DNA of 64,000 nucleotides. Origin: Cheilinus undulatus. Lineage: Eukaryota; Chordata; Actinopteri; Labriformes; Labridae. Within the stretch, counting starts at the first letter, position 1. Every line of letters begins with the position of its first letter. The position numbers were made by a program, and so were the translations under genes. Below are positions 4,360-55,913 of the stretch, in pieces. Where the stretch lies: assembly GCF_018320785.1 (NCBI RefSeq), contig NC_054869.1:37537789-37601788 (forward strand), read 5' to 3'. The notes under the pieces are model-generated. The model was not told the DNA's origin and did not search any database. It worked only from the letters and a program-made list of their open reading frames with translations.

Positions 4360-6059
4360 TAAAGGGCCTATAAAAAGTATTCATCCCCTCAGATGTTTGA
4401 ATAATAACTTTATTTATATAGCACTTTTAAAAACAGTTGTTTACAAAGTGCTTTACTCACAGCCAGATCAAAACTCAGGAAAAAATGAAAATTAACAATC
4501 AGAGCAGAATAGGAGCTCTGTAAAATCAAACAAGACGGGAAGAACATAATGTGGACGCTGGGGAAAAATAACAAAAACGAAAATGACACAAGTAGATCTT
4601 GAATGGCAGTTACAGTAGAAGATTATAAAATCTAAAATATAATGGAGTCAGTGAAAAAGAATATGATTCCTATGATAATATTCCAAAAGATATCGTAGGA
4701 TGTGGGAGAAGGAGAGAGTTAAATACATATATTCAAACAATAAAACAAACAAATACATGAAGAAGGTGACATCACATCAGTGGGGATAAAACAAAGATAA
4801 GATTCAAGACAGAAAACGCAATAGAAACGAGTACAGGTAAGTAAAATTTAGGTAGGTGAAGACGAGATGATAAATCAACATGAGATAAGAAAGAAGGGTA
4901 TAAAATTATAAAAAAGATAAAGAGTGGCAGTGTAAATAAAAGAGAAGTATTAAAATAGATAAATAGTTAGAAGGGACGTCACATAAAAGCAAGTCTGTAA
5001 AAGTCTGTTTTAAAGAGTGATTTAAAAGATAACACCAAATCTGCCAGTCTTATCTCCTCGGGCAGCTTTACCCTTATATTGATTTTTTAATCAGTCATGG
5101 GAAATAAAATTTGACTTTTTGACAAAAAAAACAACTATTTAATGTCAAAGTGAAAACAGATTTCTACAAAGAAATGTCAATTAAATAAAAATATGCAAAA
5201 ATAAGTGACTGCATAAATATTCACCTCTTTCAACTGAGAATTTAGTAGATGCACTTTTGGCTGCAATCACAGCACTTGGCTGCCAAGAAGCATCCCAGCA
5301 GCATGATGCTGCCACCACCGTGCTTCATAGTGGGGATGGTGTGTTTGTAGTGATGTGCAGTGTTTGGTGTCCTGTCTGATGGCTAAAAGGCACTATTTTT
5401 GTCTCATCAGACCAAAGAACTTTCTACCACTTGACAATGGAGTCTCCCACGTCTTTTGGTAAGCTTTAGTCGAGATTTATCGAGTTTTCTTCAACAGTGT
5501 CTGTCTTTTCCACTCCCCATCAAGCTTTGACTGGTGAAGAACACAGGCAACAGTTGTTGCATGTAGGGTCTCTCCCATCTCAGCTGCTGAAGCTTGTAAC
5601 TCCTTCAGAGTAATCATAGGGGTCTTAGTGGCCTCTCTCACTAGTTTCCTTCTTGCACGGCCACTCAGTTTGTGAGGACAGCCTGATCTAGGCAGATTTA
5701 GACAATGTACTATATTTATTCCATGTCTTGATGATGGATTAAACTAAACTCCAGGGGGTGTTCAGTGCTGTTGAATTTTTTTTATCCATCCCCTGACTTC
5801 TACTTTTTAATAACCTTTTCTCTGAGTTGCTTTGAGTGTTCTTTTGTCTGCATGGTGTAATGGTAGCCAGGAAAACTGGACCTTTCACACACATGTGTCT
5901 TTATACTAAAGTCACTTGTGACACATTCACTGCACTCAGGGTTTTTTTTTAAAAAGCAAAGTGTGCAAATATAATAAATTGTATTGACCATGATTGATTT
6001 TTGAAATTAATAACAGGGTAAAACATCCATGGGGGTGAGTAGTTTTTATAGGCACTGTA
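4360..6059 (-). mobile_element. Tc1/mariner-like element, internally decayed, with a nested insertion
   Basis: Imperfect inverted ends, starting taaagggcctataaaaagta on the left and (minus) tacagtgcctataaaaacta on the right, each at a TA. The minus strand carries transposase remnants, including the HGGGSIML region near 5290-5330. Bases of about 4398-5070 are foreign to the element: a dispersed repeat that begins aataactttatttatatagc and shares its end with 50530-50620. Confidence 0.75.
4398..5070 (+). repeat. Dispersed repeat nested in the Tc1-like element
   Basis: Starts ataataactttatttatatag and ends ttatctcctcgggcagcttt. The end matches 50560-50625 (ctgatctcctcaggcagatt) in the same orientation. 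A common fish dispersed-repeat signature; the class was not determined. Confidence 0.55.
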
Positions 6060-17596: not shown

Positions 17597-31374
<13,778 letters not shown>

Positions 31375-52174: not shown

Positions 52175-55100
52175 TGAGTGTAACTCAACAATCTTTATTC
52201 AACTCTCATTCCATGTTCATCAACCTTAACACAATACACTTCTCTGTGCAGGCATCAGGTATTCAGGGTGACTTTAGTCTTCCCACTGAAACCATCATAA
52301 AGTACAGAGTGTATTCCATCTCTTTTTAATCCATCTACTTCCATTTCCCCTTTAACCTTTTCTAAACAACTGAGCCTTTTTTATTTTAAAGTACTTTTTT
52401 CTTAGAAATGTGTGCAGTTTGTAAACTACAGAGAATATCAGAACAATGCAAAGTAAAAATAGCAGGAATGTGCAGAACTTTACATCCAAAATGTGCATGT
52501 TTGTTAGAAGAAATGTCTTCTTGTTAGTTGTGTTTTAGAACAAAGAGTAAACCATATTACTGGTACATGTTTATGCTTGCATTTACATGGATTTCATGAC
52601 TTTTGCTTTAGAAAAGGGACAGTGCTTTTATATTTCTTGAAACCAAATTTGGTAAATCCAACAGGAATTTATTACTTTATTTTTTGCAACTACCTTTGTC
52701 ATATAGATGGATTGTCTGTAAAAGTTTCCCCACTTCTTACTTTTTATTGCTTTTGTTGTTCCATTTCAGTATCTTATATGTCCAATCCCTCAAATATCCT
52801 TCACTATCTAAAGTGTTTATTATGTTCCTGATCTACCTGCTCCGCCCTCTCCTGCCTGACTTCATACAGACGCCACTAGAGCGTAGTTTCTGCGCCTGGA
52901 TTCATTACGGATGGAGAGAGCATAATGGAAGAGGAAGTTGATGAACATAACAACCACGTACACACCTGAGAAAGGAAGAGAGTGACCCAGACAGACATGC
53001 TGACAGGCAAACAGGTGAAAAACAACATCACTTCTTCCTGTTTCATGATCTTAGGTTAACATGCTGCTCGTCATCGCTTTGGATGGTGCTGATTTAGTCT
53101 AGCTCAGAGTGATGTTGGACTCCACCTGTTCATCTCTCCCATGCTGTCATGGATCACCCTCCTCCTCTCTCAGGGCAATACTAGTTGGTAAAAAGAGCGC
53201 TGGGCCCCTGGTGTTTCTGATGTCAGAGCCAGCTTACAGCTGCTCTCACGCTCAGCTACCACCGAGGGGTCAGGCTCACAGGGCTGACTGAGGCTGCTGT
53301 CAGTCAGCAGGAGGCGAGCGTCACTGTCAGTTCTCTCTAACAGTATTGGCAAAATCGCCTGCCAGTCCGTGTCACTGTCAGGAGGCGGGCAACGCCCTGT
53401 CACAGTGTCAGAGACCGACCGGCTGCTCGCTCCCTGCGTCACCAAACAGCATGCGTCAGTGTCAGCATCAGCTGGACTTAGGAGAGGCTTCGTTGTCAGA
53501 GCCTGCTGTCCCCTGTCAGCTGTACTTTGACTTTCACCTCACCTTCTCTACTACTCAGGGAGCCACAGGGGCGTCCTGTTGCATTTGCTGCATCTGCGGC
53601 ATCAGTGCTACCAGCTGCTCTAAGTCTGACTGATGTTGACTGTGAGATACATCTCGCTCCTGCCCTTGCTGTCTAGCACCGTGATGGTCACCGCCATGAC
53701 CAGCACCACCATGATCTCCATGGTGATTGCCATGGTGGTCATCACGGCCATGACCTAAGCCACGGGGGTGAAAGCCGTGACCATGGCTGTTGTCGCGTCC
53801 ATGACCTCTACCATCATGACCATTATTGTGATCATGACCATGGCCAAAACCATCATGGCCTCCATGGTGCTGACCGTGGTTGTTACCACCACCATGGCCT
53901 CCATGGTGGTGACCGTGGTTGTCATTATGGCCATGACCAGAGCCATGGGGGTGAGAGCCGTGGTTGCCCCCTTGGTGGCCATGGTCATGACCCTGCTGGT
54001 GAGCGCCATGACCTTGATGGTGACCAGTGTCTGGTGGGTTGTCATCATCAGGCTGCACATCTGGGATCCTTGTGCACTCTTCAGGTGGCTCAGCGCTCTG
54101 CAGGAGAATAGAAAGATTTTTTTCAAGTGAACTCATCTTGAAATAAAAGTCAAACAAGACTATTATTTAAAAAGTTTTGTTGATTGGATTAATGGGCATT
54201 CTTTGATTTATGTCCGTACATTGTAGGTGCAGTTTTCACAGACGGGTATGCAGTAGGTATCTCTTATGGCGCTCTCCACATGGCCAAGTCCAATGATGGA
54301 ATTTGGAAGTGAAATTTGGTGTGTGAGACGGCCACACCTGATTGAACAGAAATGAAAGAAAATGAATGGTAAGACAAATAAAAAACTAAAGAGTTATGGT
54401 CTTGATTTCCCTTGAAAATTTGAGTGACTCTTCACTTACCGGTCATAAATGAGAAAGTCATCCTTCACTCCATTGAGTGTCTGCCAGACATTAGGCTGTT
54501 GTTCATCCTGTTGGTACAGTGCAATGTTCTCTGACAGTTTCTCAGCCAGCAGTGGGTGCAGGCGCTGTGCTTGCTCCCCCTGGTCGTTGATGACGATGTA
54601 GACAATATCCCTCAGGCCCCGACGTTCAAGCTTTTGGCGCAGTTGTTCCAATCTGATAGGTTGAAGAATATTAAAGAACAAAAACCAGTTTACAGGACAG
54701 AAAATGTATGAAATACTGTTCAGAAATCAAGAATAAAGAGGAACAGAAGCAGATATGTGAAGGTGAACTTTCTGAGTTACATAAGAAGTCAGACGCGTCA
54801 TGCCAACTTGGCAGCCATGAAGAGGGGCCATAAAATTTATCAGACACTTAAAATTAAAATTGCTCCTATAATGAAATGTGATGATCCATTCTACTTTAGG
54901 CTTTTCCTCAAATAGACTAAAGTGCATAACAAGAGATCGATTTTTTTAACACAAGGGAGTCAAATACCTGGAAGCCTGCACCAAACAGAACAATCAGCTG
55001 GCCTGGAAGAGGGCCACCACCGTCACCTTGCCCATGGCCCCCTTCATCGGCTCCACCTCCCCTATCCGCCAAGATGGTGGCAGCTGACACCGTCGCCCAC

Positions 55101-55838
55101 CCCCTCCGTCACTCTCTGCCCCGCCCCCATGGAGCAGGCAGAGAGTGAGGAGCAGGCTGAGGCACGCCCACATGCCTGCGGTGCCTCTTCACTCCCCCGA
55201 TCTACTGAAAACAGAGAGGAGGGGGAGAAAGGGGAGGGAAGGTTGGAAAAGGAGGCAGGCAGTAAGAGGAGAAAGAAGGAGGAGAGATAATCAGAGACTG
55301 ATAAAACTTGGCAGACAAAACTAGGCTGGATGGACAAAAGGTCAGAGAGGGGTTATCATTCTGAAATTCTGCTAAATGCCATTGTTGTCCTCTTCAATGT
55401 AACTGCTCTTTAAACAACTGCATCTGAGGGTAAACAAAGCAGTTTAATGAAAGTTTCAAATCTGTGCTGGTGTTACTTTAGCACAGATTTAAGTTTGGTT
55501 ACAAATCATGCATAGAATTTATTACAAAGAAGTCCAGCAAAATGCATGAATACAAAAAGGCAGAAAAGTCAAGAAACAAAAAAAGGGTTCAGTAGCAGCA
55601 CCATTAACTATACTTCAGTCCCACCAGAAACAAGGTTTAAATGCATTTTAAAGGAAACCCCCTCCTGATTCTCAGCATTCTTCATCAACTTTTCACAGTT
55701 GTTAAATGTGACACTAACACAAACATCTTGCTTTCCATCAAACAGGTCAAATTAATGAATTTTCCACTTACCCCTCCGTTAAAAGCGTCTTCTTCTCTGT
55801 GCTCAGCTCTGCGTTGCTTCTACTCCTCGAACAAAAAC
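52175..55838 (-). CDS. selenop: Selenoprotein P with 17 in-frame selenocysteine (UGA) codons; gene span including UTRs
   Basis: Secreted selenium-transport glycoprotein made mainly by liver. Non-coding exon about 55838-55772; coding segments 55173-54968, 54652-54440, 54337-54220 and 54097-53234 (TAA at 53236-53234). All introns are GT-AG with matching phases 2, 2 and 0. The product is 466 residues: signal peptide about 1-19, a thioredoxin-like domain with [13 protein letters not shown]60-LFC, the conserved [12 protein letters not shown] segment, a His-rich linker about 205-335, and a C-terminal domain with Sec at 360, 367, 373, 389, 391, 393, 409, 419, 421, 436, 438, 445, 453, 455, 461 and 463. 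From 53557 to 53236 the frame has sixteen TGA codons but no TAA or TAG before the final TAA, which fits a Sec-rich tail and not a decayed UTR. Seventeen Sec is the number I recall for zebrafish selenop (SelPa); the paralogue selenop2 has one. Two SECIS-like hairpins lie in the 3' UTR. Confidence 0.95.
52194..52199 (-). terminator. selenop poly(A) signal
   Basis: AATAAA on the minus strand, about 34 nt beyond the base of SECIS 2, so both SECIS elements stay in the mature 3' UTR. The predicted cleavage site is near 52175. Confidence 0.7.
52233..52315 (-). promoter_or_regulatory. SECIS element 2 of selenop 3' UTR
   Basis: About 940 nt past the TAA. The basal stem AATACACT/AGTGTATT is a perfect 8-bp match. 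Quartet strands are ATGAT (ATGA at 52298-52295) and TGAT (52257-52254). The upper stem GGTTTCAGTGG pairs with CCCTGAATACC with two small bulges. An apical AA precedes the mini-hairpin GACT/AGTC, giving a canonical form-2 layout. SELENOP mRNAs characteristically carry two SECIS elements, so the pair supports the gene call. Confidence 0.88.
52847..52918 (-). promoter_or_regulatory. SECIS element 1 of selenop 3' UTR
   Basis: About 330 nt past the TAA. Minus-strand order: CTCTCC (basal stem 5' arm), ATGA at 52905-52902, CAGGCGC, an AAA apical bulge at 52889-52887, mini-hairpin ACTA/TAGT, GCGTCTG (seven pairs with CAGGCGC, one of them G-T), TGA at 52864-52862, then GGAGAG pairing with CTCTCC. The 12-nt spacing from ATGA to AAA is typical. 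The mini-stem above AAA makes it form-2-like. It would recruit SBP2 for UGA recoding. Folding was done by eye. Confidence 0.82.
53234..54097 (-). CDS. selenop: selenop last coding exon: His-rich linker and Sec-rich C-terminus
   Basis: The acceptor is ttctcctgcag. The exon opens [19 protein letters not shown]. About 130 residues follow that are dominated by HG, HH, HD and GGH units (about 40 His), expected to bind metals and heparin. After [11 protein letters not shown] the first TGA (53557-53555) is Sec360, and the frame continues through 15 more TGA codons to TAA at 53236-53234. The core U-C-U-H-U-R-M-L with later [12 protein letters not shown] lines up with the human SELENOP Sec/Cys cluster (UCCHCRHL), with fish Sec in place of several Cys. 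Stopping at the first TGA would lose 107 residues and 16 of the 17 Sec. Confidence 0.93.
54220..54337 (-). CDS. selenop: selenop third coding exon
   Basis: A 118-nt exon with no usable ORF of its own. It encodes [20 protein letters not shown], then [19 protein letters not shown]. It continues YDR into CGRL and supplies the cysteines of the YC...C.NC motif that ends the conserved SELENOP domain. The acceptor is gttcaatcag and the donor gtacgg, in phase 0. NCT is a sequon. Confidence 0.9.
54440..54652 (-). CDS. selenop: selenop second coding exon, thioredoxin-like domain
   Basis: It encodes [20 protein letters not shown], a NDQGEQ turn, [17 protein letters not shown] and KDDFLIYDR. These correspond to the SELENOP N-terminal domain (conserved VYQQ...[16 protein letters not shown]). 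The acceptor is acctatcag and the donor GTAAGT; the exon is entered and left in phase 2. Confidence 0.95.
54968..55204 (-). CDS. selenop: selenop first coding exon: signal peptide and redox Sec60
   Basis: The acceptor follows a long pyrimidine tract (ctctgttttcag) and the donor is gtattt, in phase 2. ATG is at 55173-55171, with G at -3. The start encodes [19 protein letters not shown], a clear signal peptide. [21 protein letters not shown] follows, up to the TGA at 54996-54994, then LFC. This places Sec in a U-x-x-C redox motif as in mammalian SELENOP. A stop-based reading would truncate the protein at residue 59. Confidence 0.95.
55772..55838 (-). other. selenop 5' non-coding exon (predicted)
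   Basis: Starts about 25-30 nt after a TATA box and ends at a consensus donor (aacggaggg|gtaagt, GT at 55771-55770). It holds no ATG. The next acceptor is at 55205, giving an intron of about 570 bp. The exact start is inferred from the TATA spacing. Confidence 0.65.
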
Positions 55839-55863: not shown

Positions 55864-55913
55864 CTTTTATACCCTGCCTGTTGTTTTTCTCTCTGCTGTG
55901 AGGACAAAGTTCA
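55864..55913 (-). promoter_or_regulatory. selenop core promoter: TATA box, FOX-type and HNF4-type sites
   Basis: On the minus strand, TATAAAAG lies at 55871-55864. An AAAAACAA forkhead-like site is at 55888-55881. TGAACTTTGTCC at 55913-55902 (reverse complement GGACAAAGTTCA) is a close match to the HNF4 DR1 consensus. The mammalian SELENOP promoter is known to respond to HNF4A and FOXO1 in liver. The sites here are recognised by motif only. Confidence 0.65.

Follow-up and report, generated by a model that had tools for sequence, protein, structure and literature searches.

Does the histidine-rich selenoprotein fragment that standard gene prediction would report from a wrasse genome represent a whole product, or does its frame continue through further TGA codons into a full-length selenium-transport protein? 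The locus that raises this question lies in a 64,000-nt stretch of the Cheilinus undulatus genome (RefSeq assembly GCF_018320785.1, contig NC_054869.1, positions 37,537,789 to 37,601,788), which is called the window below and whose own numbering is used throughout. We conclude with near certainty that its minus strand carries SELENOPa of a ray-finned fish as an intact gene, one that would be transcribed, spliced and read with 17 UGA codons as selenocysteine (Sec) to yield a selenium carrier.

The reading frame and its TGA codons

With TGA read as Sec, four minus-strand exons bounded throughout by GT-AG splice sites join without loss of frame into 1401 nt that encode 466 residues followed by TAA, which agrees with the four phase-matched exons proposed in the initial annotation. 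Coding exon 1 (54968..55173) begins with the ATG at 55173 and a signal-peptide-like segment and holds the beginning of the SelP_N domain, exons 2 (54440..54652) and 3 (54220..54337) are placed by the exon model and by SelP_N matches in the genome, and exon 4 (53234..54097) encodes a His/Gly-rich linker (residues 195-331), the Sec-rich tail and the stop TAA. The gene, its frame, its exon borders and its conservation are direct observations.

Recounting the in-frame TGA codons across the joined exons revealed 17, the number and the placement claimed before. UGA 1 (residue 60, 54996-54994) lies within VALFQAS-U-LFC, a U-x-x-C motif near the N terminus, with the end of exon 1 following 26 nt later, and the other 16 occupy residues 360-463 (53557 to 53246) with no TAA or TAG between them. 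The standard code ends the reading after DAPVAP at residue 359, exactly the His-rich fragment that had been expected from an ordinary gene caller. The three tail frames (107, 106 and 106 codons) contain 16, 1 and 4 TGA codons, with no other stop in the coding frame and 2 and 3 TAA or TAG codons in the two alternatives. Among 100,000 first-order Markov resamples of the tail, 21.8% were free of TAA and TAG, and none was both free of them and supplied with at least 16 TGA codons. One alternative frame of the same region holds a 122-codon open frame (53173-53538, minus strand), which exists because each TGA becomes GAN there.

Conservation of the protein and its tail

Pfam profiles matched the 466-residue protein in the expected order, SelP_N (PF04592, 3e-71) and then SelP_C (PF04593, 2.2e-11), and SelP_C was still matched by the tail alone with every Sec masked as X (2.6e-4, 21.4 bits), while none of four shuffled tails matched it at E up to 1. 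Searching with the recoded protein returned at least 51 homologs, drawn from a list limited to 8000 scored candidates, with fish selenoprotein P among the best (4e-119 at the top of the matches listed), the best two of those listed being selenoprotein Pa of Xyrichtys novacula and Labrus mixtus, both Labridae. The named homologs are selenoprotein P (a or b) or SelP-N-domain, hypothetical, unnamed and uncharacterized proteins from fish, frogs and pig. The same protein matched no solved structure at E up to 1.

We compared the tail with eight others, P0050 and seven more. P0050, a fish-like sequence, has Trp at all 16 tail Sec positions (alignment score 364, z 33), and the Trp at these places indicates that it was evidently translated with TGA as Trp. 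When every Sec and Trp was masked, the alignment still scored 214, whereas 300 shuffles reached 42 at most, so conservation extends well beyond residue 359, the point past which its absence had been named as evidence against the full-length reading. Six tails (P0018, P0019, P0021, P0023, P0026 and P0036) had masked scores of 53-84, above the maxima of 40-48 from their own 300 shuffles; all six look mammalian by sequence, and P0023 (pig) is the only one so named.

One alternative takes the first tail UGA, with the protein complete at residue 359, as the true end of a short His-rich product, everything beyond it being untranslated or the leftover of decay. Several fish SELENOP entries in the databases do end at or near this place (P0001, P0002, P0003 and P0004), and short forms that likely end at UGA 2 or 3 have been described in mice (PMC5133445). 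We nevertheless consider this hardly credible as the whole account, because relative to P0050 the tail preserves its frame, many residues between the Sec positions and each of the 16 UGA positions, as would not be expected of a remnant, and no TAA or TAG precedes its final stop.

SECIS candidates and a second locus

Ribosomes can decode UGA as Sec by means of selenocysteine insertion sequence (SECIS) elements (PMC5133445). The initial annotation had described none, and the present analysis adds two candidates in the 3' untranslated region (UTR). We scanned both strands of the 64 kb for ATGA or GTGA, an apical AA or CC, TGA and both helices, a stricter search that superseded a loose pattern with 287 candidates, and obtained six rows representing five sites, two on the minus strand and three on the plus strand. 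The lowest energies among the six rows belong to 52905-52862 and 52298-52255. The first is the core (ATGA ... AA ... TGA) of candidate SECIS 1 (52862..52905, minus strand), with an outer helix formed by GCTCTCTCC/GGAGAGGGC and a distance of 329 nt from the stop codon; the second is the core (ATGAT ... AA ... TGAT) of candidate SECIS 2 (52243..52308, minus strand), which is matched by the Rfam family SECIS_1. Directly 3' of SECIS 2 stands an AATAAA (52194..52199, minus strand) that likely serves the full mRNA as its poly(A) signal, and five further AATAAA occur between 52380 and 52821. Both candidates fold with a small apical helix, which fits the report that the two SECIS elements of fish SELENOP are both of type 2 (PMC5133445).

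A SelP_N profile search of the genome (1.17 Gb, 46 contigs) gave at least six matches from nine candidates, falling into two loci with three each. The second locus (C13:39231452-39237063) contains AS-U-HFC with one UGA and a His-rich exon that ends in TAG, with no Sec tail seen, and carries a further TGA just after DDFLVYDR, at the expected exon end; as far as its sequence indicates, it follows the SELENOPb pattern. A SELENOP pseudogene or misjoined duplicate in place of a working gene is just as improbable as the truncated product; nothing in its favour turned up, all splice sites are GT-AG, the frame is unbroken, TATA and poly(A) signals are in place, and the only other locus that the SelP_N search of the genome showed is this one-UGA paralogue.

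Weighing the evidence for full-length SELENOPa

Several results weigh against the full-length reading, and they concern the SECIS candidates and the tail. Random sequence of the same composition contained 0-3 SECIS sites per strand in six trials, so the observed count is no excess. The Rfam SECIS_1 match to 52308-52243 scores 25.4 bits, below the gathering score of 35 (E 0.21 over 10 kb, 0.022 over 1 kb), and SECIS 1 has no Rfam SECIS match at E up to 10. Fold z-scores reach only -1.6 for SECIS 1 and -1.9 for SECIS 2 (of 200 shuffles each, 10 and 6 were equally stable), and the 563 nt between the two candidates exceed the published average of 334. For the tail, the masked SelP_C score lies below the curated cut-off of 28.8 bits, the P0008 (snailfish) tail finds no support outside its Cys positions (masked score 21, shuffle mean 26), and a protein search with the tail alone gave no match at E ≤ 0.001 among 37 candidates.

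Since the number of SECIS sites lies within the random range, the count alone is no proof and location carries the argument; position and structure outweigh the statistics, whose weight is modest. The empty tail-only search we think reflects an annotation gap, fish SELENOP entries being truncated ahead of the tail, because precomputed SelP_C is present in only 8 of the 51 homologs. The identification as SELENOPa rests on the order of SelP_N and SelP_C, the U-x-x-C motif, the His-rich linker, the conserved Sec tail (all 16 positions shared with P0050), the two SECIS candidates, the second locus with its single UGA and the neighbouring growth hormone receptor gene, and the initial annotation's proposal of a full-length, Sec-rich selenoprotein P is borne out.

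By analogy with the family, the gene would use a TATA promoter near 55870, its transcript would be spliced, and its 17 UGA codons would be read as Sec under SECIS direction. According to the published model UGA 1 depends mainly on the distal SECIS, and the UGAs that follow it on the proximal one (PMC5133445; for SECIS roles and the two-SECIS rule also PMC3316567), and the two candidates may divide the work in this way. The product would be secreted, with an N-terminal domain predicted from SelP_N to be thioredoxin-like and to bear the U-x-x-C, and its 16-Sec tail would carry selenium from liver to other tissues; a Sec-rich tail is required for selenium transport (PMC5133445, PMC2397514). A ribosome that terminated at UGA 2 would leave a short, His-rich protein. 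The use of this promoter, splicing, the insertion of Sec, secretion and selenium transport are thus all predicted from what relatives of the gene do.

Comparison with other selenoprotein P genes

The locus adds one more ortholog to a gene already known, as fish SELENOPa with 15-17 Sec has been published (PMC4699779, PMC6301783). The fish SEPP1a sequences annotated by 2015 had 15-17 Sec, with 17 in zebrafish, carp and two pufferfish (PMC4699779); trout has SelPa1 with 17 Sec and two SECIS and SelPa2 with 16 Sec and one SECIS, and zebrafish SelPa has 17 Sec and SelPb one (PMC6301783), in accordance with the numbers given in the initial annotation for zebrafish selenop and selenop2. The present gene resembles SELENOPa/SEPP1a of zebrafish, trout and pufferfish in its U-x-x-C in the first coding exon, its tail Sec gathered in one exon and its total of 17, and differs in a longer His/Gly-rich linker, the 563-nt SECIS spacing and a long hairpin before SECIS 1, this last known here from this genome alone. 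With the one-Sec SELENOPb it shares the N-terminal domain and the His-rich segment, whereas SELENOPb is without a Sec-rich tail.

Mammalian SELENOP (10 Sec in human) likewise combines SelP_N, SelP_C and two SECIS, and the model for it places an exon junction complex 20-26 nt after UGA 1 (PMC5133445), where the exon here ends 26 nt after that codon; at many tail Sec positions, however, the mammalian protein has Cys (PMC2397514). The human preSECIS region measures 254 nt within a 3' UTR of 71% AU (PMC9337670), as against 329 nt with a long hairpin between the stop and the SECIS 1 core in this fish.

The linker comprises 137 residues by a window rule, 39 of them His, followed among the 51 homologs by two wrasses at 127 each and then by 99, with a median of 42 in a set that includes some partial sequences. 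A 39-nt unit in 1.9 copies lies inside its coding region, and from these sequences the long linker looks like a wrasse expansion.

The value of the locus lies in a complete SELENOPa model, since several related sequences are annotated only as far as the tail and two others seem to change frame around it. In the tails of these two, P0029 (Mugilogobius chulae) and P0048 (Conger conger), the sequence is apparently read in another frame (ADADTD... and PPDSDTD... in P0029), to which the 122-codon open frame of the window corresponds, and by this spelling they appear to be wrong-frame misannotations. Vertebrate selenoprotein genes are reported to be well annotated in 11% of cases in Ensembl, 5% in GenBank and 77% in RefSeq (PMC12822975).

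A long hairpin in the 3' UTR

One feature of this locus was not expected, an extended RNA hairpin, and it is the lead that deserves a second look. A single long hairpin occupies 52965..53175 (minus strand), between the stop codon and SECIS 1, with a main stem of 63 pairs (28 GC, 27 AU and 8 GU) and 6 and 8 unpaired bases in its arms. Its minimum free energy is -101.4 kcal/mol (z -9.1), a stability reached by none of 200 shuffles, and a second shuffle gave z -9.6 and again 0 of 200. The two main repeat segments are complementary as DNA at 84% and 83%, and the hairpin is therefore no fresh perfect inverted duplication. Downstream of the SELENOPb-like stop there is no comparable fold, the best 211-nt fold there being -57.2.

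A G+C-adjusted scan of 211-nt stretches in steps of 10 ranked the hairpin fourth in the window (z -4.3), which weighs against its being exceptional; ahead of it came 29791-30001 on the plus strand, the region around the start codon and the strand antisense to the His repeats. In a scan with steps of 50 it fell outside the top 25 of 2552 stretches, presumably because the register cut an arm. The leading stretch, 29791-30001, is the most stable in the window for its G+C (14%); it is AT-rich and self-pairing and sits between open frames of the growth hormone receptor gene.

We rejected a mobile palindrome, as a genome search (1.17 Gb, skipping simple repeats and very common words) found a single match to the hairpin, namely itself. 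Two Rfam matches were also set aside as far below their gathering scores, MIR6457 covering the hairpin and mir-4504 lying opposite the His-rich repeats, on the complementary strand.

Deleting the preSECIS in human cells made the inferred protein-to-RNA ratio of SELENOP almost three times higher in a selenium experiment (PMC9337670), and structure at this position could therefore matter. It is conceivable, though on balance unlikely, that in this fish lineage the 63-bp rod brings SECIS 1 near the coding end, adjusts how processively the 16 tail UGAs are read and fills the role of the human preSECIS. If shared by other fish, a preSECIS hairpin would offer a handle on the processive reading of many UGA codons in one mRNA.

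The 5' region

Upstream of the start codon, the minus strand contains a TATA box TATAAAAG (55864..55871) that likely belongs to the promoter, a likely donor side of a 5' UTR intron, GTAAGTGG... (55757..55771), and a possible acceptor for it, TTTTCAG/TAGATCGG (55211-55197, cut after TTTTCAG). The annotated protein P0017 (Oryzias javanicus) includes translated 5' sequence ahead of MWAGLS, which fits such an intron. Stable stem-loops (-60.8 kcal/mol) cover the start codon and signal-peptide codons (55100..55190, minus strand), with none of 200 dinucleotide shuffles and none of 300 synonymous-codon shuffles as stable. Structure at the start codon of SELENOP mRNA has reportedly been described in a study, and the stem here is probably that element.

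Neighbouring genes and further observations

SELENOPa neighbours the growth hormone receptor gene (GHR) on the plus strand, where 30505-31371 matches PF12772 at 1.8e-50 (intracellular exon) in a Pfam check of 10 open frames chosen by eye; GHR presumably adjoins SELENOP in human as well. Three plus-strand frames (17828-18070, 20498-20764 and 21330-21599) resemble GHR extracellular exons by eye, but none of them matched Pfam at E up to 0.001. CCDC152 overlaps SELENOP antisense in human (PMC8266573), and a probe with an approximate CCDC152 query sequence gave a best match of E 0.7.

Among the homologs, four snailfish sequences (P0008, P0009, P0011 and P0012, from Liparis tanakae and Pseudoliparis swirei) lack both Sec and Cys where the N-terminal Sec would stand (HAGVAFC, for example), and in three separate entries from Liparis the tail Sec positions are occupied by Cys. 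These are either a duplicated SELENOP converted from Sec to Cys or a case in which the database writes Sec as C; a literature search on snailfish SELENOP found no paper naming snailfish among the matches listed. P0003 and P0004 (the latter from Coregonus suidteri) have Cys at the N-terminal Sec position (QASCLFC and QASCMFC), which reflects either a true replacement of Sec by Cys or the way the database writes Sec. Elsewhere in the window, the minus strand holds two Tc1/mariner-type transposase fragments (5480-5743 and 19492-19974), both with HTH_Tnp_Tc3_2 and the second also with HTH_SB.

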